A stretch of DNA of 64,000 bases. Source: Nonomuraea angiospora (GTDB lineage: Bacteria > Actinomycetota > Actinomycetes > Streptosporangiales > Streptosporangiaceae). The stretch is from assembly GCF_014873145.1 (NCBI RefSeq), contig NZ_JADBEK010000001.1:992001-1056000 (forward strand), given 5' to 3'. A program made the translations under genes and the position numbers. This document shows, in pieces, positions 14,798 to 31,536 of the stretch. Position 1 is the first letter of the stretch. Every line of letters starts with the position of its first letter. The notes under the pieces were generated by a model. It searched no databases, was not told where the DNA came from, and worked only from the letters and a program-made list of their open reading frames with translations.

Positions 14798-15673
14798 ATG
14801 GGCACCTGGTTCATCACCGGAACCTCCTCCGGCTTCGGCCGTGAGCTCACCGAACAACTGCTCGCCCGAGGAGACCGGGTCGCCGCCACCGCGCGACGCC
14901 CGGAGTCCCTCGACGACCTGGCGGCCCGCCACGGCCGGCAACTGTGGCGAGCCCGCCTGGACGTCACCGACACGACCGCGCTGCGCCAGGTCGTGGACCG
15001 CGCGTTCACCGACCTCGGCCGCATCGACGTCGTGGTGTCCAACGCCGGCTACGGCCTGTTCGGGGCACCCGAGGAACTCACCGACGAGCAGATCGACCGG
15101 CAGATCGCGACCAACCTCACCGCCTCGATCCAGCTCGCCCGCGCCGCCACCCCGCATCTGCGCCGGCAGGGCGGCGGACGCTACATCCAGATCGCCAGCG
15201 TCGGCGGCCAGATCGCCTTCCCCGCCATGAGCCTCTACCACGCCACCAAGTGGGGAATCGAGGGATTCTGGGAGTCCTCCGCCGCCGAGCTCGCGCCGTT
15301 CGGCATCGGCGTCACGATCGTCGAGCCCGGCATGTCCCGCACCAACTTCGGCGGCGGCGGCGCCGTCCTCGGCGCACCGCTGCCCGAATACGCCGACGGC
15401 CCGTCCGGGCAGCTGCGGCGCGTGCTCTCCGGCGAACTGCCGCCGCTGCCCACACCTGGCGACCCCGCCAAGATGGCGGCGGCCATCATCGCCTCCGCCG
15501 ACCAGGCCGAGGCGCCGCTCCGCCTGACGCTGGGCTCCGACGCCTACGAGCTGGCGACCACGGCCCTGCGCGGCCGCCTCGAAGCCCTGGAGGCCGGGCG
15601 AAGCCTTGCCTACTCCACCGACGCCGACGACGTCGTCCACGCACCTGCCCTCACCGCCTCCACCTCCCGCTGA
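14798..15673 (+). CDS. SDR-family oxidoreductase
   Basis: A 291-residue classical short-chain dehydrogenase: TGTSSGFG (residues 8-15) is the NAD(P)-binding glycine motif, NAGYG the structural Asn, and YHATKW the catalytic Tyr-xxx-Lys. Arg after the first helix (ARRPES) suggests NADP preference. The start ATG at 14798 follows AAGGGGAA. It is controlled in all likelihood by the divergent TetR. A second, broken SDR gene follows 11 bp downstream and once formed an operon with it. Confidence 0.9.
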   Translation: MGTWFITGTSSGFGRELTEQLLARGDRVAATARRPESLDDLAARHGRQLWRARLDVTDTTALRQVVDRAFTDLGRIDVVVSNAGYGLFGAPEELTDEQIDRQIATNLTASIQLARAATPHLRRQGGGRYIQIASVGGQIAFPAMSLYHATKWGIEGFWESSAAELAPFGIGVTIVEPGMSRTNFGGGGAVLGAPLPEYADGPSGQLRRVLSGELPPLPTPGDPAKMAAAIIASADQAEAPLRLTLGSDAYELATTALRGRLEALEAGRSLAYSTDADDVVHAPALTASTSR

Positions 15674-15684
15674 AGGAGCCCGCC

Positions 15685-16214
15685 ATGTTCGATTTCACCG
15701 GCAGACCGTCCTGATCACCGGCGCCTCCGGCGCGCTGGGCACCACGCTGTCCGTCCAATTCGCGCAGGCCGGCGCGAACGTCGTCGCCGCGTCCCGCAGC
15801 CGCTAGGACGAGGTGGCCGAGAAGGCCGGCGGCAACAGCCTCGGCGTCCGCCTCGACGTCACCAGCGAGACGGAGTGGGCCGAGGCGATCACCCGGGCTC
15901 ACCGCCGCGCCCGGCCTCGTCGCCTACAGCAGCAGCAAATGGGCACTGCGCGGACTCACGCGCGCCGCGGCCAAAGAACTCGCCCGCGACAGCATCCGCG
16001 TCAACGCCGTCCACCCCGGCATCATCGAAACGCCCCTGGCCTACGACCCCGACGGCAACCCGATCGTCCCCGTCGACAACCTCGCCGTCCCCCGCAACGC
16101 GGCCCCCGACGAGATCGCCGACTTCATTCTTTTCACCGCCTCCGACCAAGCCCGCTTCGCCACCGGCTCCGAAGTCCTCGCCGACGGCGGCTACATGCTC
16201 GGCGCCATCGCCTG
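15685..16214 (+). pseudogene. Second SDR gene, frameshifted and internally deleted
   Basis: The start MFDFTG is followed, after a small deletion, by TVLITGASGALG in another frame, then AGANVVAASRSR, a TAG, and LGVRLDVTSETEWAEAIT. After a large internal gap the gene resumes in a third frame with LVAYSSSKWALRGLTRAAA and VNAVHPGIIETPLA, ending DGGYMLGAIA. The cofactor motif and the catalytic YSSSK remain, but the central strand with the catalytic Ser is deleted. It is clearly inactive. Confidence 0.85.
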
Positions 16215-16755
16215 ACAACAGGCAAGCTCATCACCGCATCAGGGGCAATCGAGCTCACCATTGTTCAGCCTCCGCTCGACGCGGGCGGGTGCCGCTTCAT
16301 GACTCGTCGCAGGGCGCTTGGTCTGCGGTTTTGAGTTGGAGCGGAGGCCTCAGCAGGAGCGCTGATGTGCTGGATGCGTGCAGAAGAGCAGGTGGCGAGC
16401 ATGCATTCGGCTATCTGCGCCTCGCAGAAGGCGGCCGAGAACCGAGAAGTCTCGGAGCCGATTTCCTCTCGCAGGCACCAGGCCATCACCTCCCCGCTAC
16501 TTCACTCAAAGTGAGCGCGTGCTTACTTTGAGCGAGAATGCCGATCCAGAGAAAGGAAAGGTTTCTGCCCATCCTGTCCGCCCTCGTAGACCGCACCACC
16601 ACCGCAACCCCTCCACGGGACAGGTCGGCGTCGGGCCACGCCCTGCGTCTCGGGCGCATGCCGTTCGCCGGCGTCGACCAGTCCCTCGAGGCCCGGTTCA
16701 CCACAGTGATCGACGCACGTGCGAGCTTCCGAGCGACAGGAGCGACAGGAGGGAC
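16215..16755. other. Gap of 540 bp without a supportable gene
   Basis: Short open frames exist on both strands, but none has a recognisable product together with a good ribosome-binding site. The only clear structure is the inverted repeat at 16505-16532. A 9-bp tandem GAGCGACAG occurs twice at 16731-16748, just before the small gene at 16756. Confidence 0.5.
16505..16532. promoter_or_regulatory. 28-bp inverted repeat upstream of the four-gene island
   Basis: CTCAAAGTGAGC (16505-16516), GCGT, GCTTACTTTGAG (16521-16532): the 12-bp arms pair with one mismatch. The even, operator-sized palindrome without a T-run looks like a TetR-type operator rather than a terminator. No intact regulator lies beside it. 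It could control the island starting at 16756/16967. Confidence 0.45.
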
Positions 16756-16983
16756 ATGGGCGACCTGGTCGAGTTGTGGAAGCGGGACATCAGTGATGGC
16801 GGGGTCATCGACGACCTGCTTGACGAGACGCACCCGGGGTTCACCGGCGCGAAGCTGAGCCGGCCGCGCGCTGTGTGCCCGGCGGCGAGGCTTCGGGACA
16901 CAAGGCGGCGCACGGCACCGCGGTGGCCGGCGAGCGCGTGGTTCGGACCATGGGGGAGGGGTTGCCGTGCCGACGGTGGATGA
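16756..16983 (+). CDS. Small hypothetical protein preceding the island
   Basis: 75 codons beginning MGDLVELWKRDISDGGVIDD after a strong AGGAGGG site seven bases upstream. The first 40 residues look like genuine protein (acidic, helical). The Arg-rich tail, which overlaps the next start at 16967, may be out of frame, so this may be a truncated gene. No family is recognised. It could be the first gene of the island. Confidence 0.35.
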   Translation: MGDLVELWKRDISDGGVIDDLLDETHPGFTGAKLSRPRAVCPAARLRDTRRRTAPRWPASAWFGPWGRGCRADGG

Positions 16984-19765
16984 TCTGCGTGCTTTGCTGG
17001 AGGACGCGCGGTTGGAGGGTGCGCTGAGTCTGCCTGCTACGGCGTTGGGGCCGTGGTGGGAGCCGGTGAGCGCACTGTGGGCCGGGGACGGCCTGCGGAT
17101 GGAGCGGCTGGACGGCGGCGATCCGGCCCGGCTTGCGGTACGAGGGTTCGCGGCGCTGGCGGACAGGAGTGCGGCGCCCGCGGTGGTGTCGGTGGAGTTC
17201 ACCGCTGCCGATGGTGAGGTGGCCGGTGTCTCGCTGTCGGTGGACGGCGTGGAGCCGGGGATTCCTGCGGCGTGGTTGGCCGGGCGGGTCGGTGCCGTGT
17301 GTGCGCGGCTGCCTGAGAACGCGGTGGTCAGTGGGTTCCGGGTGCGGGCGGGCGCCGACGGGCTCGCGCTGGACGGGTGGGGCCCGGAAGTCCGGCTTGC
17401 CGTGCGCAAGAGCGCCGGTTCGCTTTGTGCCGTGGAGGGCGGCGGCGGGGACGGTGGCCGGTGGCGGGTGGTGTGCTGTGATCGCGACCTGACGGCGGAC
17501 GGCCTCGCGGAGGCGGCGTCGGGGCTGGACGACCTGGTGCCTCGGCTGCCCCAGGGCCTGGCGGCGGGTTCCTGGCTGGTGCTGCCGGGTCCGGCCGTGG
17601 TGCCGGTGCGCGGAGGCCGGCACAACGTTGCGCGTGGTGCGGAGCGCGATGGTCTGGGGCGGGCGTTGCCGGTGAAGCCGCAGCGGCCGCGGCCGCTGCC
17701 GTCGCGGCGGGTGCCGACGGCGGTGGCCGGGCGCGAGGGTTTCACGGTGCTGGCACCGGCCGCGCAGGGGGCGCAGCCGCTCGGGTGGAGCATCGGGACG
17801 CCGGGTGACGGCGAGGGGATCACCGTCTCCTACCGGGTGCCTCCGCTGTCGGTGACGGGAACCTTGACGGCCCTGCCCGCGTCGCCGCCGTACCGCACGG
17901 TGCTGGGCGGGGTGCTGCTGGTGGAGAGCACGCTGGTCACCGGCAGCGCGGTGGGAGCCTACGTCGTGCCCGGTGAGTCCGGGGTGCGGCCGTCGATGTT
18001 CGCTTTCGGCGCGCTCGGCCGTGACAAGGGGATCGGGCCGCCGCCGTTCCAGGTGCGCGGCATCGCGCTGGGAATGGGCTGGAACAGCCGGGTTCGGCAG
18101 CCCACGATCGAGGAGGTGGCCGATTTCCCGTTCGTGGTGGCGTTGGACAACCCGGGGGCGATCGGCGGCGCGGGCGGCGACCCGGTGCAGGTGCTGCGTA
18201 ACCTGACCGGCGGGAACGACCCGTGGGTGCGGCCGGCCGAGGGCGAAGTGTGGGTCGCCGCGGGCCTGGCGTTCAGTTGCTTCGATGTGGTGTTCGGCCG
18301 GGCGCTGGCGATGGTGCAGACCGGGGCGGATCTGACGATCGCGCTGCTGGGCGTGGGAAGTGCGGAGCTGCCCCGCAAGGCGGGCAGGAAGTTCGCGAAG
18401 GCGGAGATCGCCCTGGAGGCGGTGCTGAAGCCGAACGCGGGGGAGATGCGGCTGTCGGCGGCGTTGACACCGGCGTCGTTCGTGATCGACCCCAACTGCA
18501 GGCTGCGCGGCGGGGCGACGCTGGCGGTGTGGTACGGCTCCAGCCCCCAGGCGGGCGACTTCGTCCTGAGCCTGGGCGGCTACCACCCCAACTACAAGCC
18601 GCCGGCGCACTACCCGGTGCCTGCGCGCCTGGGTTTCGACTGGGACCTGACGGGGAGCGTGACCGTCAGCGGCAGCGCCTATTTCGCGGTCACGCCGTCG
18701 GCGGTGATGCTCGGCGGCAGCCTGGATGTGCGGTTCCATTCGGGCATCCTGCGGGCGTGGCTGACCGCGCAGGCGGACGCGCTGATCCAGTGGGAGCCGT
18801 TCGCGTTCGACATCGGCATCAGCGTGCGCATCGGCGTGCAGGCCCGAATCAAGATCATATTTGTGACGCTGACGATCACCATCGAGATCGGGGCGAGCCT
18901 GCGGCTGTACGGGCCCCCGACCGGTGGGGAGGCCACGGTCCACTTGTGGTTCATCGAGTTCACCATCGGTTTCGGGGCCGAGCGCAGCGCCGAGGACGAC
19001 CTCCTGGACTGGGGGGAGTTCACGCGAATGCTGCCGCCGCCTGGCGGGCTGGTGCGTATTCACCCGGGTGCGGGACTGATCAGCGACGAAGGGCGGGTCG
19101 GTGGCGCGGGCGGCGCGTGGCTGGTCTCCTCCGCGGGTTTCGCGTTCACCGTGGACTCCTCGGTGCCGATCACCGAGATGTACGTCGACAGCCTGTCCAC
19201 CTCGCCGGTGCAGCGCGGTGACCGGGTCGGGGTGCGGCCGATGGGCGAGCGGGACCGCACGGCCAAGCAGGTGGTCGCACTGCTGCTGGAGGGGGAGCCG
19301 CTGTCCCTGGGCGGGTGGGGGAGACGGTTCCACCGCTCGGCGGTGCCGCGGTCGCTGTGGGGGACCGGGTCGCCGACTTCGCTGCCGCCGGACGGGGCGC
19401 AACTGATCCGCAACCAACTGACCGGCGTTGAGCTGGCGTCCCCGGCGGCGGACAACGGCGGCAGCACCGGGTACGTCTCGGCCGAGCACCTCAAGTTCGA
19501 TCGGATGGATCCCGGCGTGCTGCCGTTGGACGCGAACGCTCGTCCCACCGGGCCGACTCCGGTGCGGCTGCCCGGAGGGCAGGCGATCGACCGTATCCGC
19601 TCCACCGTCGATGCCGCGCCGCAGCGTTCCGCCCGGGCCGCACTGGTGGCCGCGCTGGCCGCTGCCGGGGTGGAGGTGGGGGCGGTGGATCGAGATCTGC
19701 CCGGATACGCCCGTGCGGCCGAGTCCGCCTTCACCGCGGCTCCGCAGCTCGTCCCCATCGGCTGA
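16967..19765 (+). CDS. Island protein A: large DUF6603-like protein
   Basis: 932 residues with no signal peptide or obvious membrane helix. The middle and C-terminal part (about 280-720) consists of many alternating beta-strands, for example LRGGATLAVWYGSSPQAGDF, LSLGGYHPNYKPPAHYPVPA and FAFDIGISVRIGVQARIKI. It resembles DUF6603-type proteins, a family without known function. The amphipathic strand series at about 590-680 could form a beta-barrel or pore, but this is speculation. GTG 16967 follows GGGGAGGGG. Three further large genes follow almost without gaps, so all products probably act together. Family call by memory of sequence pattern; not verified. Confidence 0.6.
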   Translation: MPTVDDLRALLEDARLEGALSLPATALGPWWEPVSALWAGDGLRMERLDGGDPARLAVRGFAALADRSAAPAVVSVEFTAADGEVAGVSLSVDGVEPGIPAAWLAGRVGAVCARLPENAVVSGFRVRAGADGLALDGWGPEVRLAVRKSAGSLCAVEGGGGDGGRWRVVCCDRDLTADGLAEAASGLDDLVPRLPQGLAAGSWLVLPGPAVVPVRGGRHNVARGAERDGLGRALPVKPQRPRPLPSRRVPTAVAGREGFTVLAPAAQGAQPLGWSIGTPGDGEGITVSYRVPPLSVTGTLTALPASPPYRTVLGGVLLVESTLVTGSAVGAYVVPGESGVRPSMFAFGALGRDKGIGPPPFQVRGIALGMGWNSRVRQPTIEEVADFPFVVALDNPGAIGGAGGDPVQVLRNLTGGNDPWVRPAEGEVWVAAGLAFSCFDVVFGRALAMVQTGADLTIALLGVGSAELPRKAGRKFAKAEIALEAVLKPNAGEMRLSAALTPASFVIDPNCRLRGGATLAVWYGSSPQAGDFVLSLGGYHPNYKPPAHYPVPARLGFDWDLTGSVTVSGSAYFAVTPSAVMLGGSLDVRFHSGILRAWLTAQADALIQWEPFAFDIGISVRIGVQARIKIIFVTLTITIEIGASLRLYGPPTGGEATVHLWFIEFTIGFGAERSAEDDLLDWGEFTRMLPPPGGLVRIHPGAGLISDEGRVGGAGGAWLVSSAGFAFTVDSSVPITEMYVDSLSTSPVQRGDRVGVRPMGERDRTAKQVVALLLEGEPLSLGGWGRRFHRSAVPRSLWGTGSPTSLPPDGAQLIRNQLTGVELASPAADNGGSTGYVSAEHLKFDRMDPGVLPLDANARPTGPTPVRLPGGQAIDRIRSTVDAAPQRSARAALVAALAAAGVEVGAVDRDLPGYARAAESAFTAAPQLVPIG

Positions 19766-19800
19766 CCACCTCACCGGTGGAGAAAGGCTTCACATCGGTC

Positions 19801-21987
19801 ATGAGCAGAATCAGCAGTGTCGAGCACCGGATGCGCCTGTTCGACCATCGCATCCCCGCCTTGTACGCGGGCAGGCACGAGATCCGCGTCGACCAGAGCC
19901 TGGATGCCACCGGGGCGAGCCTGCCCACGCACCGGCAACTGTTCGACGTACGGGAACTGCGGTTCGAGATCGCGGCCACGGACGTGCAGGCGTGCTATCC
20001 GCTGCCAGGGGCCAGCGGCCTCTACAGCCAGGTGCTGCCGCACATCACCCTGGACACGGCGGCGCTGCCGTGGCTGCGGCGCCTGCCGGGGACGGACAGG
20101 GCGACGCCATGGATGGCCCTGCTGGTCTTCCGCGAAGACGAACTCCCGGGAGACCCGCTGGCGACGGGCATGGTCGACGTGCAGACCGTGCGCGGGCTGC
20201 TGGACGGCGCCCTGCCCGGACAGCCGCCGCATATCGCGCCGGAGTACATCTTCGACGACGAATGGGACAGGGCGTGCACGACCATCCGCGTGCCCGGTGA
20301 GCTGTTCTCCGCGATCGCGCCGACGGCGAAGGACATGGCCGCACTGGCCCACCTGCGCGAAGGCGGGCCGCCGGACGCCACGCACAACCGCTCGGGCGAC
20401 GAACCCGAGCCAGAGCTGGACGAGCTGAACGCGGTAGTGGTGGCCAACCGCTTCCCCTCCGTGGACGGCGGCATGCACGTCGTACACCTGCTCTCCTTCG
20501 ACGGATTCGAGCGCTACCTGGACGGCGCGAGCGCCCCGCCGGCCGCGGGGCTGCGGATGGTCTCGCTGTGGTCGTGGACGTTCGAGTCCGCCAATGACAC
20601 CGGGGTCGGCTTCGGTGACCTGGCGCACAACCTCGCCACGGGCCCGGATGCCCGGCCCGACCTGCTGCTGCGCCGACGGGTGCCGGATCCGGCCGGGTCG
20701 GAGCCCGCGCGGCGTGAGGTCGCCGAACGGCTGCGGGCGGGCGCGGCGGCACTCGCGCATGTGCTGGACTCCGGCGAGCGGTCGGTGGCGTTCTACCGCG
20801 GGCCGTTGACCGCGCAGCGCGCGCAGCCGCTGCCCGGCCCCGCCGAGGGGCGTTCCCGGCTGGAGTCCGCGGGTGAGGCGCTGACCTACCTGGAGGAACA
20901 CGGTGTGTTCGACACCGGGTACGCGGCCGCGTTCAGCCTGGGGCGGCAGCTGTGCTTGGGCGATGAGGAGTTCCGTACCGCGCTGATGGAGTTCCGCAAG
21001 GCGGCGCGCGGCGTGGTGCGGCGAGTCGCCGGCCGAAGGGCGCTCGGGCGGTCGGTGACGGCGGGGGAGTTGTCCGGGCGGGCGGCGCGCGAGGCGTTCG
21101 ACCGGCTGCTGACCGCCGAGTCCGGGCGCCGGTTCGGCCAGATGCTGTCCGCTGCGGGGGCGGCGGCCGCCGCCGGGCGGCGCACCCGCCGGGCAGGCGC
21201 CCGATCGGCCGGCGCGTCCAGTCCTGTGGGTGCGGTGCAGTTGCGCGCGGCCGTGGCGCAGGCGGACACGCGGGCGGTGCTGCGCGAAGTGCTCGCGCAG
21301 GAGCTCGAACCGGTCGCGGCGTGGCTGGGGCGGCTGCCGATGCTGGAGACGATCCCGTTCGAGCACCTGGTGCCGGACGAGGCGATGCTGCCGGTCGAGT
21401 CGCTGCGGTTCGCCTACACCGACCCCGGGTGGATACGCGCCGCCGTCGACGGCGCGCTCAGCGTGGGGGTGGGCCATGCCCTGGACGCCGATCTGAACGC
21501 GCTCGCCGCGCAGGTCGCCGAGCCGCCGCCGTGTGTGCTGCTGCTGCGGTCCGACCTGGTGCCGAACTGGCCGAAGATCATCATGACGGCCTTCCGCGGG
21601 GACACCGTGGTCGAGCCGGTGCGGCGCGCGGTGTACGGGCATGACGTGCTGTTGATGCTCTACCCGCAGGTGATCGACTGCTTCACGATGGCCGAGCCGC
21701 CGCAGGGCCTGCATTTCGGGTTCAGCGACATCGGCACCATCGAGCGGCGGAAGATCTCCGGTCCGGACGTGGGCGCGAGGCTGGGCGAGTTCCCCGAGGA
21801 GCCGACCGACGACCGGTTCGCGCGGTTCCTGCGGCCGGGTGGCCACGACGTGCTCAACGTCGACGGCACCGATGATGCGCTGCTGCCCGCCCTCTCGCGC
21901 GCTCACGAGATCGAGCGGCTCACCTCCGCGCAGTTCGCCCTGCAAATGATCAAGGCCCCTCAGTTTCAGGAGTTCTCCCGTCCATGA
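19801..21987 (+). CDS. Island protein B: large protein of unknown function
   Basis: 728 residues from ATG 19801 (GTG 19777 is possible but lacks a ribosome-binding site; GGAGAAAGG lies at 19779-19787). No recognised domain. Features: an N-terminal region rich in aromatic strands (MRLFDHRIPALYAG), a central Ala/Arg-rich helical stretch around 400-470, and LLLRSDLVPNWPKIIMTAF near 590. No signal peptide. Its end overlaps the next start by four bases (ATGA at 21984). Stoichiometric co-expression with proteins A, C and D is likely. Confidence 0.75.
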   Translation: MSRISSVEHRMRLFDHRIPALYAGRHEIRVDQSLDATGASLPTHRQLFDVRELRFEIAATDVQACYPLPGASGLYSQVLPHITLDTAALPWLRRLPGTDRATPWMALLVFREDELPGDPLATGMVDVQTVRGLLDGALPGQPPHIAPEYIFDDEWDRACTTIRVPGELFSAIAPTAKDMAALAHLREGGPPDATHNRSGDEPEPELDELNAVVVANRFPSVDGGMHVVHLLSFDGFERYLDGASAPPAAGLRMVSLWSWTFESANDTGVGFGDLAHNLATGPDARPDLLLRRRVPDPAGSEPARREVAERLRAGAAALAHVLDSGERSVAFYRGPLTAQRAQPLPGPAEGRSRLESAGEALTYLEEHGVFDTGYAAAFSLGRQLCLGDEEFRTALMEFRKAARGVVRRVAGRRALGRSVTAGELSGRAAREAFDRLLTAESGRRFGQMLSAAGAAAAAGRRTRRAGARSAGASSPVGAVQLRAAVAQADTRAVLREVLAQELEPVAAWLGRLPMLETIPFEHLVPDEAMLPVESLRFAYTDPGWIRAAVDGALSVGVGHALDADLNALAAQVAEPPPCVLLLRSDLVPNWPKIIMTAFRGDTVVEPVRRAVYGHDVLLMLYPQVIDCFTMAEPPQGLHFGFSDIGTIERRKISGPDVGARLGEFPEEPTDDRFARFLRPGGHDVLNVDGTDDALLPALSRAHEIERLTSAQFALQMIKAPQFQEFSRP

Positions 21988-24900
21988 ACACGACCGGGCG
22001 TTCGACAGGGCCGGCGATGACCGCGGCCAACACTCTGGTGGTCCCGGTCGAGGTCGCCGCGCTGGCGGTCAACGACCAGACCCGCATCACCGACGGCAGC
22101 TTCATCTGGCAGCGCTGGCAGGCCGACTTCAGCGCCGTGGCCGAGGACAACCTGCCGCCCGAACCGGTGCCGTTCACCTTCGAGGACTGGAGCGACGACC
22201 CCGGCCGGTGCGGGGTTTACCTGCAGTGGCAGCTACCCCAGGCGCTGACCCGTGGCCGGCACGACGAGGCCGAGGGCATCGGCGACTTCCCGCTGGTGCC
22301 CAACCGGTGGCTGGTCGTACGCCGTCTCGGTCTCCAGACGCCACGCACCTGGCTGGTGCACAGCGATTACCTCGGCAGCCGTGACGACGGGCCGGGCGTC
22401 ACCCCCGGCACCGTGTCCTATCTCGACCCGAGCTCCGGACAGGAGCCGAAGGCGACCTTCCTCGGCCGCGCCGTCGAACTCACCCAGGACAACCCCTGGA
22501 GGGAACCGGACGACGCCCGTGAGCCGTTCCTGACCGCGATCGGGTCGGGCCTGCTGACCTTCGCGGCCTTCCAGCCGTACAACCACAACGTGTTCTCGCT
22601 GCACGACCCGCTCGACGATGTCACCAGAGACGCGACGCTGTCCTACCACGTGTCCGGCTGGTACTCCCATCCCGGTGCCGACATCGCCGCCAGAGCCGGC
22701 GAGGAGAGCCTGCACGAGTGGCTGGACCGCCTGCGGTGGAGCGCGCCGACCGCCACCAGCGAGGTGGCGCGCACCCTGTACACCGGCAGCGTGCTCAACC
22801 TGGTGTGGCAGCCGGGTGGGCCTGTGCCGGAGTCGGACTGCCCTGGGCCGGACAACATCGCGGTGTGCGTGGGCAACAGCTCCGCCGAAGCGGTCGCCGC
22901 CCTGCCCGGCGAGGCTGAAGGCGTCCTGGACGCCGAGGACTCGCGGCTGTTCCGCGCTTTCGCGCTGGGCTGCCTCGGCGCGCTGGACCGCGCCGACGGC
23001 GCCGGTGACGGGCTGGTCGCGCAGGCCGCTCACGACACAGGGTTCGGGACCTCCCCGGGAGGCTTCGCCTGGCGCGTGGTCGACCACGACGACGCCGAGG
23101 CCCGCAGCCGTACACTGGCCCAGCACCGCGTACGCGAGCAGCAGGTGGTCGCCGAGCTCAACCGCCTGCAGGCCGAGCACGACGCCGATGTACGCGCCCT
23201 GGCGGGGGAGCGCGACCGCCTGTTCGACCTGTGGTCGCTGTCGCAGGCGGCTCGCCGCCACCCGGACGTCGACGCCATCCTCGACGACGAGCTCGACCCC
23301 GACTTCTCCTCCGGCGCAGCCGGGCGTGCCGCCGCCCTCATCCGCCGCATTCGGACGGCACGCGAGGTTCTGCCCTGGGGCGAGACGCCCGAGGAGCTGG
23401 CGGCCGACGCGGCCGCCTACGCCGACCGGGCCGGGCTGCGCTCCGCATGCGTCCTCGAACGCGTCCCGGCACCACCCTTCCACCACGCCACCGACCCGGT
23501 GGTGGTGCTGCACGGCGCCCACCTCAACGCGCCGCTCACCCGCGGGTCGGCGCTGCCGTGCCGTCCCGCCGACCGGCTGGTCCGGGCCGTCCGTTTGATC
23601 ACCGAGAACGACGTGCGCGCCGAAGTGCGGGCCGTGCCCACCAGCGGCCTGCCGGAACTGCTGCCCGCGGCGCTGACCGAGTTCTTCATCCTCGCCCGCG
23701 CCCGCCCAAGCGGCCCCATCAGCGCCGGGGACACCATCGGCGCCCCGCCCGAATACGGCATCGACCTGTGGCGGCAGCCCTGGCAGCCGCTGTTCCTGAT
23801 GTGGAAGGCCAGCTACACGCCGCTGGCCTACACCGAAGCCGGCCGGCGCCGCTGGCGGTTCGACGGCACCCGCTACATCTGGGACGGCGACGGCGACATC
23901 CCCGACGCGGTCGAGGTCATGGGCCGGCAGATCCTCACCCCCAGCGTGGGGCACGCGCTGGCCGGACAGATCGACGCCCACACCGCGCACCGCACCGACC
24001 TGCCGGACGACCTGGTGCGCGGGCTGCGCGAGACCGTCCGCCGCGAGGACCTGCTGGCGCAGTCCCTGGACGGGTTCGGCGCGATGCTGCGCCAACGCGA
24101 CCCCCGGGCGGGCCGCCGCCCCCCGGCCGGCGTCGAAGCCCTCATCGGCCCCACGGACATTTCCCCGCCCGTCCCCGGCATCCCGCCGAAGTATCCCGGA
24201 CAGGAATGGCAGGACTCGCGCTACCACGAACTGCGTGCCGGGCAACTGGCCTTCACCCGGCTGTCGGTGGTCGACCGGTTCGGCCGCGCGGTCAACCTCA
24301 TCGAGGACGAACGCCACTTCACCCCGGTGCTGCCGGACACGATGATCCCCGAGACCCCCGTCGATGACATCGCCTCCGACCGGCTGATCGAGTTCGGCCC
24401 GCGCCTGCTCCAGCCGGCCCGGCTGCGGTTCGACTTCCTGGCCAGTGACCGCGACGACGACATCGCCGTCACCCCCGGCGCCAACCCGGTATGCGCCTGG
24501 CTGCTCAACAACCGCCTCGACCGCGCCCTGGCCTGCTTCGACCCCGACGGCCGCGCCCTGGGCGAACTGCGGGACGTCCTGGCCCCCGACGGTGACCGCG
24601 CCGTCGCCTGGGCGCCCCTGCCCGGCTCGCACGTACGCGAGCTCGAGCAGCTACGCGAGATGTTGCCGCACACCTACGCGTTCCTCGACGCCATCCGCGG
24701 CCGCGGTCCGGCCGTGCTGGCGTCCGTGCGCGCCACCGTGGACGCGGCACTGACGACGATCGACCCGGACGGCCCCGCCGACGCCGGCCTGGGCTTCCTG
24801 CTCGGCCGTCCCGCCGCCCTGGTCCGCACGCGCCTGGACCTGGAACTGCTCGGTCCGGTACGCACTACCGTCGGCTGGACCCAGGTCGCCGACCCCCCGC

Positions 24901-25535
24901 CCCCCGAGGTGCCCTCCTACGAGTGGTTCGTCCGTCTGGGCGAGCCCGCGCGGACCGACGACGGCCTGATCGGCGTCGTCCTCAACGACGACTACACCCA
25001 CCTGCACACCACGATCGCACCGGTCGGCGACCACGGCGGCTACCTGCGGCCCATCCCCATCGACGGCGAACCGTCCATCACCGTCTCCGTCACCGGCGCC
25101 CCGATCACCGCCACCCTGCTCGTCGACCCGCGGGTGCCCATCCACGCCACCACCGACATCCTGCCCACCGGCACCGTCCACATCCCCCAGGAGTTCACCG
25201 CCACCGCACTGTCGCGCATGGCCGTCGGCTTCCGCGCCGGGCCACTGCTGGCCGCCGAAGCCCGGGGGAGCGCGCTCACGCCCGCCCCCGCCACCGCGAC
25301 CGGCACCTGGACCTGGTCAGAACCCACCGCCGACGGCTGGCGCAACCTGCCCATGACCACCCCCGACCCCACCGCAGCCTCCTTCCACCGGCCGCAGATC
25401 CGCTCCGGCTTCCTCGTCCTGAGCGACGTCCTGAGCGCCGGCCTGAGCGACGTCCCCGCCTTCACCGACAGCACCCCCGATCCCGCAGACGGCCAGGACG
25501 CCGATGGGGGAAACCAGAACGGAGCCGCCCGATGA
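21984..25535 (+). CDS. Island protein C: 1183-residue protein of unknown function
   Basis: A very large soluble protein. The N-terminal third has VPFTFEDWSDDPGRCGVYLQ and LTFAAFQPYNHNVFSLHDPL. A charged coiled-coil-like stretch (about 370-420, with VAELNRLQAEHDADVRALAG) separates it from the rest. Toward the C-terminus NPVCAWLLNNRLDRALACFD and the Pro/Thr-rich end suggest several beta domains. I recognise no enzyme motif. It overlaps both neighbours by ATGA, which indicates translational coupling. Similar large hypothetical proteins occur with DUF6603-type genes as far as I recall, but this needs a search. Confidence 0.75.
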   Translation: MNTTGRSTGPAMTAANTLVVPVEVAALAVNDQTRITDGSFIWQRWQADFSAVAEDNLPPEPVPFTFEDWSDDPGRCGVYLQWQLPQALTRGRHDEAEGIGDFPLVPNRWLVVRRLGLQTPRTWLVHSDYLGSRDDGPGVTPGTVSYLDPSSGQEPKATFLGRAVELTQDNPWREPDDAREPFLTAIGSGLLTFAAFQPYNHNVFSLHDPLDDVTRDATLSYHVSGWYSHPGADIAARAGEESLHEWLDRLRWSAPTATSEVARTLYTGSVLNLVWQPGGPVPESDCPGPDNIAVCVGNSSAEAVAALPGEAEGVLDAEDSRLFRAFALGCLGALDRADGAGDGLVAQAAHDTGFGTSPGGFAWRVVDHDDAEARSRTLAQHRVREQQVVAELNRLQAEHDADVRALAGERDRLFDLWSLSQAARRHPDVDAILDDELDPDFSSGAAGRAAALIRRIRTAREVLPWGETPEELAADAAAYADRAGLRSACVLERVPAPPFHHATDPVVVLHGAHLNAPLTRGSALPCRPADRLVRAVRLITENDVRAEVRAVPTSGLPELLPAALTEFFILARARPSGPISAGDTIGAPPEYGIDLWRQPWQPLFLMWKASYTPLAYTEAGRRRWRFDGTRYIWDGDGDIPDAVEVMGRQILTPSVGHALAGQIDAHTAHRTDLPDDLVRGLRETVRREDLLAQSLDGFGAMLRQRDPRAGRRPPAGVEALIGPTDISPPVPGIPPKYPGQEWQDSRYHELRAGQLAFTRLSVVDRFGRAVNLIEDERHFTPVLPDTMIPETPVDDIASDRLIEFGPRLLQPARLRFDFLASDRDDDIAVTPGANPVCAWLLNNRLDRALACFDPDGRALGELRDVLAPDGDRAVAWAPLPGSHVRELEQLREMLPHTYAFLDAIRGRGPAVLASVRATVDAALTTIDPDGPADAGLGFLLGRPAALVRTRLDLELLGPVRTTVGWTQVADPPPPEVPSYEWFVRLGEPARTDDGLIGVVLNDDYTHLHTTIAPVGDHGGYLRPIPIDGEPSITVSVTGAPITATLLVDPRVPIHATTDILPTGTVHIPQEFTATALSRMAVGFRAGPLLAAEARGSALTPAPATATGTWTWSEPTADGWRNLPMTTPDPTAASFHRPQIRSGFLVLSDVLSAGLSDVPAFTDSTPDPADGQDADGGNQNGAAR

Positions 25536-27211
25536 GCCTGACCGTCTCCCAGTCCGTCGCCTCCACCGACAGCCCCTCGGCCTCCTCCAGCGGTCAGTCC
25601 GGTCTCGTCTACGACCTCAACACCGACCCCGACCCGCTGAGGGTCTCGCCCGCCCAAGGTGCCCTGGAACGCGGCGACATCGTCATCGTCGCCAGCGCCA
25701 TGAACTTCAACCCCATCGACGTCCGCCGCATCACCGTCGGCTTCCCCGTCGGACCGCACGCCCACTCCCTCACCGAGCACCTGGAGCAGATCGAAGCCAC
25801 CCTCAACCAGCAGGGCACGAGCTGGACACCCTCACACGACCCCCAGGAACAGCAGATCGTCTTCACACCCCCCGGCGGCAGCGCGGTCATCGACCCCGGC
25901 AGCGGCGCGACCATCCAACTGCGCAACATCCCCGTCAACCGCGCCGTCGGCACCGTCCCCCTCAACATCACCGTCTCCTGGCGGCGCGGCAACGCCGCCT
26001 GGAAGGACGACATCGATCTGCTCTCCGTCGGCAAGTTCCCGCCCGACTTCCGCCTGTCCAATCTCAAGGCCGCCCCCCTGACCCTCGAACACTCCGGCAG
26101 CGTCACCCTCACCTGGGAGGCCTCCTCAGGCGCCACCTACCGGCTGCTGTACGGGACCGCCGAAGTCGACGTCACCGACGTGCGCACCTACACCGTCAAC
26201 AACCTCCGCCAGACCACCCCGTTCTACCTGCGCGGCATCGCCCAGTCCGGCAACTCCACCGTGGAGCGCACCCTGACCGCGATGGTCACCGTCACCGTCC
26301 CCGACCTGGAGGTCACCAACCTCTACGTGCGCGGCAACCTCAACGCACGCATGATGACCAACATGATGCGCACCAGCTACACCACCGCCGACGGCTGGGG
26401 CCCATCCGTACCGGTCAACCTCCACTCCGGCATCACCATCCCGGGCATGGCCGTGCACAACGACCGCCTGTACTGCGTCCACACCCCCTTGATCGGGGAC
26501 CGCCTGCAATGGTCGGTCTCCAACGACGGCATCGACTGGCGCGCCGGCCAGCCCTTCAACGCCCGCAGCTACGACGCCCCCGCCCTCGCCTCCGCCGGCG
26601 GCCTGCTCCACTGCGTCTACCGCACCCCCGACGACGCCCTGCACCACACCACCTTCAAGGACGAGGTGTGGAGCCCGCCCGTCCCCATCGGCGAACGCCT
26701 CACCACCCACGCCCCCGCCCTGGCCACCATGGTGGACGGCACCACACTCGTATGCGTCTACCGCGGCACCGACGGCATCCTGTACTACATCGTCTATGAC
26801 GGCAGCACCTGGAGCGGAGGAGAAAACCACTACGTACGCAGGGAGCGCAGTATCACCGGTCCTGGCATGACCGCAGGAATCAGGGGCGATCTCAACGTGG
26901 TGTGGTGCACCCACCAGTCGGAAGACGGCGGCTGGTGGCAGAACTACTACCAAGGTGGGTATTCCCCCGGCTGGCCAGGAGCTGGGTACGCCCCTACCGA
27001 GCGCTCCCAGAGCGCCAAGGCGTGCGCGACCTACGACCGCCGCCTCAACCTCGTCCACCGCCGCGAAGACGGCTACTACCTGCAACGCAGCGCGCCCGGC
27101 GGAACCGGCACAGAGGTTCCCATGCAGCGGATGGCCGTCTCCAACCACACCGCCGCAGCCCCCGTTCTCATCACCTACGACAATGCCCTGCACATGTACT
27201 ACATGCGCTGA
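25532..27211 (+). CDS. Island protein D: Fn3-like plus beta-propeller/sialidase-like protein
   Basis: 559 residues from the ATG at 25532 (overlapping the previous stop). The first 170 residues are a Ser/Thr-rich head and a beta-sandwich. The middle (about 175-255) resembles a fibronectin-III fold (SNLKAAPLTLEHSGSVTLTW). The last 290 residues contain Trp/Tyr-rich repeats every 50-60 residues (DRLQWSVSNDGIDWRAGQPF, DALHHTTFKDEVWSPPVPIG, DGILYYIVYDGSTWSGGENH) typical of sialidase-like or lectin beta-propellers. This suggests a ligand- or receptor-binding subunit of the island. There is no signal peptide. Confidence 0.75.
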   Translation: MSLTVSQSVASTDSPSASSSGQSGLVYDLNTDPDPLRVSPAQGALERGDIVIVASAMNFNPIDVRRITVGFPVGPHAHSLTEHLEQIEATLNQQGTSWTPSHDPQEQQIVFTPPGGSAVIDPGSGATIQLRNIPVNRAVGTVPLNITVSWRRGNAAWKDDIDLLSVGKFPPDFRLSNLKAAPLTLEHSGSVTLTWEASSGATYRLLYGTAEVDVTDVRTYTVNNLRQTTPFYLRGIAQSGNSTVERTLTAMVTVTVPDLEVTNLYVRGNLNARMMTNMMRTSYTTADGWGPSVPVNLHSGITIPGMAVHNDRLYCVHTPLIGDRLQWSVSNDGIDWRAGQPFNARSYDAPALASAGGLLHCVYRTPDDALHHTTFKDEVWSPPVPIGERLTTHAPALATMVDGTTLVCVYRGTDGILYYIVYDGSTWSGGENHYVRRERSITGPGMTAGIRGDLNVVWCTHQSEDGGWWQNYYQGGYSPGWPGAGYAPTERSQSAKACATYDRRLNLVHRREDGYYLQRSAPGGTGTEVPMQRMAVSNHTAAAPVLITYDNALHMYYMR

Positions 27212-27268
27212 CCTGCGGCTTCCGGGCCTGTGGGACTGTGCGGCCAACGGCGGAGCTGCAATCCGGTG

Positions 27269-28405
27269 TCAGCAGAACGCGAGGGACCCGTCCGGCCGGA
27301 CGGGAACCCGGCGTTCCCAGTGCACGTAGTCGTCCTCCGCCAGCGCGTCCTCGTCGATGGTGATCCCCCAGCCGGGCCGGTCGGGCCGCAGCTCCAGGTG
27401 CCCGTCGACCGGCACGTACGGGTCCGGGCACCACCTCGTCGTCTCCGGCTTGTACTCCAGGATCGAGAAGTTGCTGCAGGCCGCGGCGAAGTGCACGTTG
27501 TGCGCGGTGGCCAGTGGCCCCATCGGGTTGTGGGGCGCCACCATGGTGTTGAAGGTCTCGGCGAGGGTCGCGATGCGCCGCATCTGGGACATGCCGCCCA
27601 CCACGCAGATGTCCGGCTGGACGATGTCGGCGCCCCCGTGGGTGAGCAGGTTCAGGAACTCGTGGGGGGAGTACAGGCTCTCCCCGGTGGCCAGGGGCAC
27701 CTCCAACTGCTGGCGCAGGTAGCCCCAGGAGGCGAAGTGCTCCGGGCGGAGCGGCTCCTCCAGGAAGAGCGGGTCCATCGGCGCCAGGGCGTTGCCGAGC
27801 TGAACCGCCTGGTAGGGCTCGAAGATCTTGGCGTGCGCGTCGAAGGCGAAGTCGAACTCCTCCGGGCAGCACCGCCTGACCTCCTGAGCCCATTCCGCGG
27901 TCTCGGCGACGACGAGGCCCCAGCGTCTGGCGTGCAGGTCCGTACGGAACGGGCTCAGCTTGAAGGCGGTGAGTCCGTGGCTCCGGTGCAGCTCGGTGGT
28001 CTGGCGGCGGCACTCGTCGGGGTCGGGCGCGGAGTAGAGCCCGCAGTAGACGCGCACCCGATCCCGTACGGCGCCACCGAGCACCTGGTAGACGGGCACG
28101 CCGAGCGCCTTGGCGGTGATGTCCCACAGCGCGTGGTCGATGGCGGCGATCGCCGCCAGCCCGAGCGCCCCCTGCGGGAACCTGGCGGTGCGGAGGAGGA
28201 GCTGGGACACGTATTCCACGCGCCGCGGGTCCACACCCTTGATCTGCCCGCCGAGGTAGTCGAGCAGGGGGCCGAGCGCCAGGTCGGGGCCGTGGTTGTA
28301 GGCCTCGCCCCAGCCGCTGACGCCCTCGTCGGTGTCGACGCGCACCAGCACCCGGGGACGATCGCCGACGCGCTGCACGAACGAGCGCAGGCCGCTGATC
28401 CTCAT
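27269..28405 (-). CDS. Enolase-superfamily sugar-acid dehydratase (galactonate dehydratase-like)
   Basis: 378 residues with the mandelate-racemase fold: N-terminal capping domain (1-115) and barrel. Metal ligands are expected at D189 (FDAHAK), E216 (FLEEP) and E242 (TGESLY). H292 in APHNPMGP is the catalytic-base position shared with D-galactonate dehydratases. The second lysine-barrel motif reads AFKLSP rather than KxK. It would dehydrate an aldonate to a 2-keto-3-deoxy acid. The ATG overlaps the stop of the aldolase gene (ATGA), so dehydration and cleavage are coupled. The exact aldonate is unknown. Confidence 0.85.
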   Translation of the reverse strand: MRISGLRSFVQRVGDRPRVLVRVDTDEGVSGWGEAYNHGPDLALGPLLDYLGGQIKGVDPRRVEYVSQLLLRTARFPQGALGLAAIAAIDHALWDITAKALGVPVYQVLGGAVRDRVRVYCGLYSAPDPDECRRQTTELHRSHGLTAFKLSPFRTDLHARRWGLVVAETAEWAQEVRRCCPEEFDFAFDAHAKIFEPYQAVQLGNALAPMDPLFLEEPLRPEHFASWGYLRQQLEVPLATGESLYSPHEFLNLLTHGGADIVQPDICVVGGMSQMRRIATLAETFNTMVAPHNPMGPLATAHNVHFAAACSNFSILEYKPETTRWCPDPYVPVDGHLELRPDRPGWGITIDEDALAEDDYVHWERRVPVRPDGSLAFC

Positions 28406-29337
28406 GACGCCGCCACGGGCAGGGGCCCGAGGTCGTCGGTCTTCGCCCACTCGGTGAGGATCCGCGCGACCTCCTGCCGTTCCGGTTCGCCGAGGACGGT
28501 GCTCGGCGCCCGGACCGCGCGGTCGCACAGGCCGAGCTGGTGCATCGCCTCCTTGACGACGCTGACGTTGTTGGCTCCGGCGTCGACCGCGCGCAGGTGC
28601 TCGAACCGCGCGATGTCGTGGAGCATCCGCTCCGCCGCCGGATAGCGCTCCTCGCGCAGGGCGTCCCTGAGCCGGAGCGAGAAGGCGGGGTTGACGTTCA
28701 CCAGCCCGGAGGTGAAGCCCTCGGCCCCGTGGACGGCGTAGGACAGCGCGTACGGCTCGGCCAGCCCGGCGATCCAGACGAACCGGTCGGGGCCCACCTC
28801 CGAGCGTAGCTGCGCGAAACGGTTGACGTCCGCGACGGCGTACTTCAGGGCGATCACGTTGGGGCACAGGTCGCCCAGCCGCGCCAGCAGCCGGCCGTCG
28901 ACCCAGGCGTTGCGCAGGTAGAGGACCAGGGCCAGGTCCGGCACCGCCTCGGCGATCTCCCTGTGGTAGTCGAGCCAGCCCTGGGCCGACACGTGCGGGT
29001 GCACCGGCTGGTGCACCATGACCATCCGGATGCCGTGCGCCGCCGCGTGGCGGGCCTCCTCGACGGCGGTGGCGACGTCGAGGCCGATCCCGGCCAGGAG
29101 GTGCGCCTCTCCCTGCGCGGCCTCCGCGGCGGCCGTGATCAGCTGAAGCCGCTCCTCGGCGCTCAGGGCGTAGAACTCGCCGGTGTTGCCGTTCGGGGTG
29201 AGCACCTTGACGCCCGCGTCGATCAGGCGGCGCAGCAGCGCACGGTACAGCGCGAGGTCGGGGACGCCGTCGGCATAGGGCGTGACCGGGATGGCGACGA
29301 CGTCGCGCAGGGCCCGGGAGAGCTCACCGAACCTCAC
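28402..29337 (-). CDS. DHDPS/NAL-family aldolase (2-keto-3-deoxy sugar-acid lyase type)
   Basis: A 311-residue TIM-barrel class I aldolase. It has the substrate-carboxylate loop GNTGE (50-54), Schiff-base lysine K165 in ALKYA, and Tyr140 in VLYLRN at the usual proton-relay position. Together with the dehydratase next door it would split a 2-keto-3-deoxy acid into pyruvate (or a hydroxypyruvate derivative) and an aldehyde. It lies between the dehydratase and the GntR gene with overlaps at both ends, forming a three-gene operon. Confidence 0.85.
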   Translation of the reverse strand: MRFGELSRALRDVVAIPVTPYADGVPDLALYRALLRRLIDAGVKVLTPNGNTGEFYALSAEERLQLITAAAEAAQGEAHLLAGIGLDVATAVEEARHAAAHGIRMVMVHQPVHPHVSAQGWLDYHREIAEAVPDLALVLYLRNAWVDGRLLARLGDLCPNVIALKYAVADVNRFAQLRSEVGPDRFVWIAGLAEPYALSYAVHGAEGFTSGLVNVNPAFSLRLRDALREERYPAAERMLHDIARFEHLRAVDAGANNVSVVKEAMHQLGLCDRAVRAPSTVLGEPERQEVARILTEWAKTDDLGPLPVAAS

Positions 29338-29998
29338 GGCCGGCCTCCTTGATCTGCTGGAGCGCCCGCTCCTGGAACACGCTGATGTGCTGCAACACGA
29401 GCCGGGCCGCCTCTTCGGCCTCCCCGTTCAGTGCCGCCTCGAGAATCTGCTGGTGCTCCTGCGCCTCGTCCTCCCAGGAGGGACGCTGGGACCAGACGTT
29501 GACGGAGATGAGGGCCGTCTGGTCGCGCAGCTGGTCGAGCACCCCGACCAGCACCTCGTTGTCGCAGTCGGCGTAGAGGGCGCGGTGGAAGTCGCGGTTG
29601 GCGAGGCTGCGGGTCACCTCGTCCGTGGTCTCCTCCGCCTTGCGCAGGGCCTCGCGGGCGAGCCTGCCGCCGTCGCGCAGCCCCGCCTCGACGCTTCGCC
29701 GCACCGCGACCGGCTCGATCAGGCACCGGGCGTCGAACACGCTGCGGGTGAGGCGCTCGTCGACCTTGCGGACCGTCACCCCGGTGTATTCGCTGATGGT
29801 GACCAGGCCGGCGCCGCTGAGCGTCTTCAGCGCCTCGCGCACCGGAGTCTTGGAGACACCGAAACGGCTGGCGAGCTCCACCTCCACGAGCGCACGCCCG
29901 GCCGGCAGCTCGCCGCTCAGAATGCCGCGACGCAGCGCTTCGAGGACGAGGGCCGTCCTCGAAGACGCTTTGATCGCGCCCAACGCTGTCTCACTCAC
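29324..29998 (-). CDS. GntR-family regulator, FCD subfamily
   Basis: A 224-residue repressor. The winged HTH at about 30-65 contains VSKTPVREALKTLSGAGLV, and an all-helical FCD domain with metal-binding residues follows (DFHRALYADCDN). The GTG at 29998 follows AAGGAG at 8 bp and is preferred over an ATG at 30112 that would add 38 unrelated residues. FadR/GntR-FCD proteins sense sugar acids such as galactonate or glucuronate. Here it heads the aldolase/dehydratase operon and is divergent from a sugar ABC operon, so it probably controls both. Confidence 0.9.
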   Translation of the reverse strand: MSETALGAIKASSRTALVLEALRRGILSGELPAGRALVEVELASRFGVSKTPVREALKTLSGAGLVTISEYTGVTVRKVDERLTRSVFDARCLIEPVAVRRSVEAGLRDGGRLAREALRKAEETTDEVTRSLANRDFHRALYADCDNEVLVGVLDQLRDQTALISVNVWSQRPSWEDEAQEHQQILEAALNGEAEEAARLVLQHISVFQERALQQIKEAGREVR

Positions 29999-30080
29999 CC
30001 GCGCTCCTTCACTTGTCGTCGACCGCCACGGCCGGCGCTCCGTCTGGCCGCCGGGGTGGGATCGGAGGGCACAAGGCCCG

Positions 30081-30130
30081 TTGTATAGAACCGACCATAC
30101 CCTAAATCTCATATCTCATGTACCGTATGG
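30081..30130. promoter_or_regulatory. Divergent promoter region of the sugar-acid locus
   Basis: This AT-richer patch between the GntR and ABC genes carries TTGTAT (30081-30086), TAAATC about 16 bp on, and the inverted pair CCATAC (30095-30100) / GTATGG (30125-30130). It is a likely site for GntR binding and promoters, but no strict palindrome was seen. Confidence 0.35.
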
Positions 30131-30177
30131 CAACCGCACAGCGGAGCGCAGTTCTTGGTGAACGAGAGGAAAGACCC

Positions 30178-31536
30178 ATGACCCGTCAGCACCACCCGGC
30201 CGAGATCCTCGGCCCGCACGCCCTGTCCCGGCGCGGCTTCATCCGGACGGCGGCACGGGCCGGCGTCGCCATGGGTCTGGCGTCCGCGGTGAGCGCCTGC
30301 GACGGCTCAGGCGGCGGCAGCGGCGGCGCCGTCACGTTGCAGTTGTGGGACACCGACACCCGCCCGGAGCGCACGGCCAACCTCAAGAAGCTGATCTCGA
30401 TGTTCGAGGCCAAGAACCCCGGCATCCGCATCAACTACCTGGGCCTGCCCACCGACCAGTACATGCAGAAGATCAACACCGCGATCGCCACGCGCTCCAC
30501 ACCCGACCTGCTCACCCCGAAGGCGTCCGACCTCGCGGCCCTGGTGGCCCAGAACGCGCTCGCTCCCCTGGACGACCGCGTCAAGAAGGCCGGCCTCGAA
30601 CAGCACATCTCCGAGCAGATGCTCAAGTCCACCCGGGCCGCCGCCCCCGACGGCAAGCTGTACCTGACGCCCACCACCAGCCTCGCCGACGTGATCTACT
30701 ATCGTGCCGACTGGTTCCAGGAGGCCGGGCTGAAGCCGCCGGCCACCTGGGCGGACTTCGACGCGGCCGCGAGCCGTCTCACCAACGCCTCCTCCGGCCG
30801 CTTCGGCTACACGCTGCGCGGCGGCAACGGCTTCTTCAGCCAGTTCGTGCAGATGGTCTATCCACGCGCGGGCGTGAGTACGTTCTTCCGCGAGGACGGG
30901 TCCTCCACGCTGGACGACCCCGCGGTCATCGCCGCCTGCGAGAAGTACGTGGCCCTGTTCGGCAAGCAGACCGCGCGCAGTGATCTGACCGCCGACTTCA
31001 AGACCATGGTGGCCCAGTTCGGCAACGGCGGCGCGGCCATGTTGAGCCACAGCATCGGCTCCTACCCCAACCACGTCGCCGCCCTGGGAGCCGAGAAGGT
31101 CGGCGCCGTCGCGCCCTTCCCCGGGCCGGACGGCCAGGTGCTGACCGGCTGGATGACGACCGGGTTCGCGATGTTCCAGGCGAGCGAGCACCAGGAGGAG
31201 GCGTGGAAGTTCCTCGCCTACACGATGGAGCCCGAGGGCAACAGCTTCTGGGCCCAGAAGTCCGGATACCTCCCGGGCAACACGACGGTCGCGAAAGAGC
31301 AGTGGGTGACCGAGAACGCCGCCATGAAGGCCGCGCTGGACGCCGCCGCGAAGCCCGGCGTCGTGACCCTGGAACTGCCCTACTACCTGCCGGAATTCAC
31401 CTCCATCACCGTCACCGACCTGCTTCCGGAGTGGCAGAAGGTGCTGCAGGGCAGCCTGACGTCCCGTGACTTCCTCACCGCCGCGGCCGCGGCCCTGACC
31501 ACGGCCAAGCGCAAGTACGACAAGGAGCACGGATGA
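30178..31536 (+). CDS. Extracellular sugar-binding protein, Tat lipoprotein (ABC transporter)
   Basis: 452 residues. The twin-arginine motif RRGFIR (18-23) and lipobox VSAC (Cys41) indicate Tat export and lipid anchoring. The mature part is a family-1 solute-binding fold (LQLWDTDTRPERTANLKKLI, IYYRADWFQEAGLKPPATWA), as for oligosaccharide importers. The ATG at 30178 follows GAGAGGAAAG. It is the first gene of a three-gene importer lacking its own ATPase, which suggests a shared MsiK-type ATPase elsewhere. The ligand is probably the sugar acid or oligouronide catabolised by the divergent operon. Confidence 0.92.
   Translation: MTRQHHPAEILGPHALSRRGFIRTAARAGVAMGLASAVSACDGSGGGSGGAVTLQLWDTDTRPERTANLKKLISMFEAKNPGIRINYLGLPTDQYMQKINTAIATRSTPDLLTPKASDLAALVAQNALAPLDDRVKKAGLEQHISEQMLKSTRAAAPDGKLYLTPTTSLADVIYYRADWFQEAGLKPPATWADFDAAASRLTNASSGRFGYTLRGGNGFFSQFVQMVYPRAGVSTFFREDGSSTLDDPAVIAACEKYVALFGKQTARSDLTADFKTMVAQFGNGGAAMLSHSIGSYPNHVAALGAEKVGAVAPFPGPDGQVLTGWMTTGFAMFQASEHQEEAWKFLAYTMEPEGNSFWAQKSGYLPGNTTVAKEQWVTENAAMKAALDAAAKPGVVTLELPYYLPEFTSITVTDLLPEWQKVLQGSLTSRDFLTAAAAALTTAKRKYDKEHG

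Follow-up and report, generated by a model that had tools for sequence, protein, structure and literature searches.

A conserved operon of very large proteins around a DUF6603 protein in Nonomuraea angiospora, a candidate modular targeting complex

Results

Operon and flanking regions

The analysed window comprises 64,000 nucleotides of the single 13.09-Mb contig that makes up the Nonomuraea angiospora genome. Four genes, here designated A, B, C and D, follow each other on the forward strand at 16967-27211 and have a high GC content at codon position 3 (Table 1). GGGGGAGGGG is found shortly 5' of the GTG start of gene A, and the open frame of gene B extends back to a GTG at 19777. The gene calls agree with the sizes given in a preliminary description of this DNA, and the 4-bp ATGA overlaps reported there at the B/C and C/D junctions are present. 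Chance open reading frames in high-GC DNA are ruled out by the conservation of the genes.

The overlaps had also been taken to imply a stoichiometric complex, a step that is not supported, since longest open frames allow a 4-bp overlap at B/C in no more than 4 of 23 closely related loci (L010, L013, L017 and L021). They were therefore rejected as proof that a complex forms. By eye and in hydropathy profiles, A-D show no hydrophobic leader, in line with the earlier remark that signal peptides are absent. Neither an exporter nor a lysis gene is found within the operon, and Pfam searches of A-D detected no effector domain such as an NTPase or a nuclease.

The operon is flanked by unrelated genes. 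On the left there are an intact short-chain dehydrogenase gene, a TetR gene and what by eye appears to be the frameshifted remnant of a second dehydrogenase. On the right, the intact MR_MLE gene is followed by genes for DHDPS, a GntR/FCD regulator and an ABC importer (solute-binding protein, permease); this ordinary catabolic locus with intact genes (27269-32447) adjoins the 3' end of the operon. The statement that the set is bounded by decayed genes is thus apparently borne out on the left side and not on the right. A bounding palindrome was not recovered, as there is no perfect inverted repeat of at least 9 bp with a loop of 3-11 nt in 15600-17000 or in 27150-28500. Ten neighbouring genes were scanned and none matched a sheath, tube or baseplate protein. 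Further to the left (7800-11276, forward strand), a protein of 1158 aa combines ThuA, GSDH, PKD, CBM6 and ricin-type lectin domains.

Table 1. Features of the operon and its closest neighbours (positions in the window)
Feature	Position	Strand	Remark
Short-chain dehydrogenase gene	14798-15673		intact, 5' of the operon
Remnant resembling a second short-chain dehydrogenase	about 15675-16215	+	frameshifted, by eye
Gene A, DUF6603 protein	16967-19765	+	GTG start, 932 codons
DUF6603 match in A	17807-19072	+	residues 281-702, Pfam range
Gene B, without known domain	19801-21987	+	ATG start, 728 codons
ATGA overlap B/C	21984-21987	+	4 bp
Gene C, without known domain	21984-25535	+	1183 codons
ATGA overlap C/D	25532-25535	+	4 bp
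Gene D	25532-27211	+	559 codons
Conserved N-terminal anchor of D with Fn3-like part	25532-26317	+	about residues 1-262, alignment of 23 proteins
Exchangeable head of D, predicted propeller	26318-27211	+	about six blades of 48 residues, from alignment and repeats
MR_MLE gene	27269-28402	-	intact, directly right of the operon

Protein A

Protein A matches DUF6603 (PF20248), a domain of unknown function, with 410.1 bits against a gathering cut-off of 27 (E 1.7e-122), as the resemblance noted earlier had indicated. DUF6603 is the sole existing name that was found for any part of the A-D set. Searches of the available literature gave no paper containing "DUF6603" and none pairing "SRCAP-like protein", the source label of two A homologues, with Streptomyces.

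The DUF6603 region forms about 20 long antiparallel strands according to DSSP of the AlphaFold2 model of A (pLDDT 84.5, pTM 0.52). These strands are amphipathic, chiefly in the second half of the region. The mean difference between strand faces is 3.13 compared with 1.24 (sd 0.22) in within-strand shuffles, and the maximum in 2000 shuffles is 1.95, in agreement with the many amphipathic beta-strands of the preliminary description. When the model was searched with Foldseek, its core was nearest to porin barrels with poor superposition (rmsd about 11 Å, TM-scores at most 0.32), and the top rows also hold ApoB100 at E 9.6e-4 and LptD at E 1.0e-3, both with low TM-scores. Unlike OprD/Occ porins, on which it superposes at an rmsd of 11.7 Å with low TM-scores, A has no leader that could be seen. 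To our knowledge, actinomycetes have no Gram-negative outer membrane. Given the poor porin superposition and the pTM of 0.52, a closed membrane barrel is at most a possible form of A. The amphipathicity of the strands, which is the sole basis for this idea, suggests that A may be in contact with a membrane.

Proteins B and C

Searches of Pfam, NCBIfam and PADLOC at E <= 1 gave no match for B or C, and family profiles of the two proteins have no sequence match in PDB, in agreement with the earlier statement that they match nothing known. The PHROG matches of B, C and D (E 0.19-0.28) are at chance level, including one between D and a major tail protein (E 0.2). The confident model of C (pLDDT 87.0, pTM 0.83) has no Foldseek match in PDB or BFVD at E <= 0.001. 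Foldseek and VIA did not give a standout family for C, where an absence excludes nothing, and C was not found in phage records. Similarity of B or C to a known complex was thus not seen in family or PDB-sequence searches nor, for C, in Foldseek searches. A relationship between B and C is not detectable with hhalign (probability 0.8%). Among the best 120 homologues of each protein (of at least 132 for B and at least 164 for C), all names, where given, are hypothetical, putative or uncharacterised.

Protein D

Comparison of 23 D proteins, 22 of the 33 copies in loci found through B together with the D of the window, shows that residues 20-270 (window numbering) align throughout and that the remainder does not. 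The median pairwise identity is 38% over residues 20-270 versus 16% in the C-terminal part. Different heads are thus exchanged on a constant D anchor. The D of the window has an Fn3 match below the Pfam threshold (E 0.029) and C-terminal repeats spaced 47-48 residues apart, with a best self-match of 60 against a 95th percentile of 36 in 100 shuffles. The spacing fits about six blades, and together the two findings agree with the Fn3-like domain and propeller that had been recognised before.

Propeller-like heads are found in the window and in L026, L027 and L030. They have weak PDB matches only, to designed kelch and sialidase structures (E 0.0012 to 0.08). One D member has an F5/8C head, as does L024 by eye, and the D on plasmid pSCL4 of S. 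clavuligerus ends in a PLAT head. Other D proteins have short ends that by eye look like a solenoid plus knob, resembling fibres, and one member matches the FapA beta-solenoid (E 0.002). A profile of D gave nothing meaningful in PDB, and none of the 23 D proteins has a relative in PHROG at E <= 0.01. There is no second copy of the D anchor in the window genome at E <= 0.001. A gene elsewhere in that genome (G000:C1:7314387-7315163, reverse strand) is 36-38% identical in stretches to the propeller head of D and lacks the anchor.

An anchor with varying heads follows the logic of a receptor-binding subunit, and the anchor is predicted to dock on A-C. Of the functions that the preliminary description had considered, a surface-recognition complex is the one supported by the swapped binding heads. 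A self-assembling particle and a toxin, which it also named, are speculative readings. Such heads, or neighbours of lectin type, would also be expected if A-D formed an adhesion or matrix complex on the surface of the producer itself, serving to bind polymers or hosts and not to damage nearby cells, and some distant loci have neighbours with peptidoglycan-binding and surface domains. We nevertheless consider this explanation rather unlikely, because no leader or anchor to the cell was seen in A-D and simple adhesion leaves the amphipathic meander of A unexplained.

Linkage, order and distribution

The linkage and order of A-D are conserved. Scanning genome contigs with a B profile gave 26 loci, and 22 of these have A-B-C-D in this order on one strand even though they were found through B alone. 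There is one D copy in 16 of the 22 loci, two in 2 and three in 4. Within the 22, the D of L012 is interrupted by a contig end. Of the other four loci, L010, L033 and L035 run into contig ends and L034 is a remnant. Genes in two frames occur for A in L025 and L027, for B in L049 and for C in L027 and L054. Of all gene families besides A-D, one is present in 4 of the 26 loci and none of the others in three or more. Streptomyces sp. CB02959, which carries L012, has in addition a B-C-D remnant on scaffold 7 (L034) with its pieces close together.

In 34 loci chosen by DUF6603 alone, a homologue of B follows A in the same orientation in 32 and C is present in 18; these counts were obtained with profiles iterated on these same 34 loci (E 1e-5), and non-iterated profiles find B in 20 and C in 18. 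The 34 loci are the neighbourhoods from 30 of the 36 other genomes with DUF6603, together with 4 from other classes. The remaining genomes are G046 and G532 as well as G058, G368, G383 and G621, in which the DUF6603 match is weak. Of the two loci without B by profile, L051 has in the B position a gene related to distant B proteins, and nothing similar to B was found downstream of A in L092. D was not found in several loci with C, such as L047 and L106-L108.

Among 59 genomes, that of the window and those of relatives, a single-protein query matched B in 3, the window genome included; at least one distant B, in G011, escaped this query. The operon is thus accessory. Of 394 genomes of the class, 37 have DUF6603. 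C was found in 20, every one of them within these 37 (expected 1.9). The hypergeometric P, which ignores phylogeny, is 8e-24 and becomes 8e-23 when the window genome is left out. Among plasmid records, the same 8 are matched by B and by C. A matches 7 of these 8 and 6 others; the remaining one, from P. sonchi, carries B and a split C and gave no match for A.

Independent scattering of A-D homologues, which would have refuted the idea of a system, was not seen, and the strong linkage together with the lack of known relatives of B and C supports the proposal of an undescribed, conserved multi-gene system. Titles and the opening parts of abstracts in the literature searched mention nothing on this gene system. 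Linkage, order and persistence in several phyla speak for joint action of A, B and C, and physical contact among the three is predicted.

A patchy, plasmid-borne distribution and a variable recognition module might also mark a conflict system, directed against phages or otherwise, in which D is the variable sensor, and CATRA/CHAT conflict genes are located near one plasmid copy. Yet PADLOC gave no match for A-D at E <= 1 (0 matches), and no effector domain of the NTPase, nuclease or any other kind was found in A-D. A defence function is therefore very unlikely.

Alternative layouts and neighbouring genes

Three layouts were found: A-B-C-D as in the window, A-B-C'-E' and C-LamG-MBL-A-B. In the second, the third gene C' is present in 10 loci and its products are mutually related in all 45 pairs. 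A relationship between C' and C is not detectable (hhalign probability 0.1%, two controls 0.1-0.2%). The distant B of these loci corresponds to B (hhalign probability 95.9%, E 6e-9 over 74 columns). At least six C' loci share a further gene in fourth position, E', which has no detectable relation to D, C, B, C' or the distant B (probability at most 0.8%).

A-B-C' is also found on plasmids of the haloarchaeon Halalkalicoccus, Paraburkholderia caribensis and S. longwoodensis. In longest open frames, these three distant loci have 4-bp overlaps at both junctions, whereas the archaeal record annotates later starts that would leave gaps instead. On the Halalkalicoccus plasmid (L125, 17681-24498), C' is annotated with a BGTF surface domain, which hints at a surface location there. 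A Paenibacillus polymyxa plasmid has A-B-C without D.

The permuted layout C-LamG-MBL-A-B was found in 4 loci, where LamG and MBL were assigned from Pfam matches in two or three cases and from similarity in the rest; here too, a lectin-type gene adjoins C. Six loci have a gene of MBL type upstream of A, of which two pass the Pfam cut-off and the others fall below it or were assigned by similarity. Four have a gene of PhoD type there, one of which passes the cut-off. An M64 peptidase, a subtilase and a WD40 protein were each found upstream of A in one locus. No phmmer match was obtained between 20 upstream or lectin genes and 22 A proteins. The operon in the window has no hydrolase gene, nor the other upstream types such as WD40.

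The PLAT, PhoD and MBL associations could be lipid-related. Together with the lack of a visible leader and the ApoB100 and LptD rows with their low TM-scores, they would fit an intracellular storage, scaffold or lipid-handling complex in which the amphipathic sheet of A coats or shuttles lipid, similarly to ApoB or LptD, and the D heads bind internal glycans or lipids. However, a storage complex would not usually be an accessory trait of patchy occurrence, lie on plasmids or exchange its binding domains, and the archaeal C' is annotated with a surface domain. LamG, F5/8C and PLAT domains are mostly extracellular elsewhere. We regard an intracellular role of this kind as having a low probability.

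Discussion

The nearest functional parallel to the A-D set is the Streptomyces umbrella toxin. Its particles of UmbA, UmbB and UmbC combine a constant body with diversified lectin heads, mostly beta-propellers; UmbC carries a TAT signal, ALF repeats and coiled coils and ends in a toxin (PMC11062931). A-D are a comparable set of several proteins, predicted to pair a constant body with varied lectin heads. They differ in that Pfam and NCBIfam searches at E <= 1 revealed neither an ALF nor a toxin domain in A-D, and a leader was not visible by eye or in hydropathy profiles.

Tc toxin complexes are large and multi-subunit with body, binding and membrane-active parts. The A-D set, with its predicted parts, may share this general design, but A-D have no Pfam or NCBIfam match to Tc, Rhs or YD-repeat models. 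In contractile injection systems the fibres can be swapped. In Streptomyces, these systems are reported to be assembled in the cytoplasm, which is counted as a further likeness; in contrast to them, A-D have no sheath, tube or baseplate match beyond chance level.

The explanation that we prefer, with about an even chance of being correct, is that A-D constitute a leaderless modular targeting complex with a body of A, B and C, in which A faces membrane or lipid and D provides targeting. A and B would be the near-invariant core, and C, or the large C' in the second lineage, the third subunit of the body. The N-terminal part of D would dock on this body while the C-terminal head binds a surface ligand, which might be a glycan, a lipid or an envelope polymer. 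The long amphipathic beta-meander of A would meet a membrane or hold lipid. The hydrolases encoded beside A in some loci (MBL-fold, PhoD-like, M64, subtilase) may be cargo or helpers; the cargo idea is not directly applicable to the window, since a hydrolase gene is lacking there. The complex might act on neighbouring cells, competitors or hosts, once set free by lysis or by way of an exporter. Complex formation, export and role are predicted features, as are membrane contact, release and target.

A broader generalisation is possible, although we find it somewhat doubtful. DUF6603, B and C or C' might define an undescribed class of modular machines shared between domains of life, namely leaderless particles with an amphipathic beta-sheet body that inserts into membranes or extracts from them and with swappable heads. 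Some lineages would be armed with hydrolases that can be interchanged, and plasmids would move the genes among actinobacteria, Bacillota, proteobacteria and haloarchaea.

The tightly linked set of two or three such large proteins spans two domains of life; no characterised relative of it was found, and it still awaits a function. The constant anchor and variable head of D together with the hydrolase neighbours make the set testable as a targeting machine. A function for A-D would also explain a Pfam family so far known just by its number, and a structure of DUF6603 would tell whether the family is membrane-active. The N-terminal parts of two long A proteins, one of them from L107, have no sequence match in PDB. 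In longest open frames, DUF6603 proteins of about 3200-3600 aa are encoded in L049, L106, L107 and L108.
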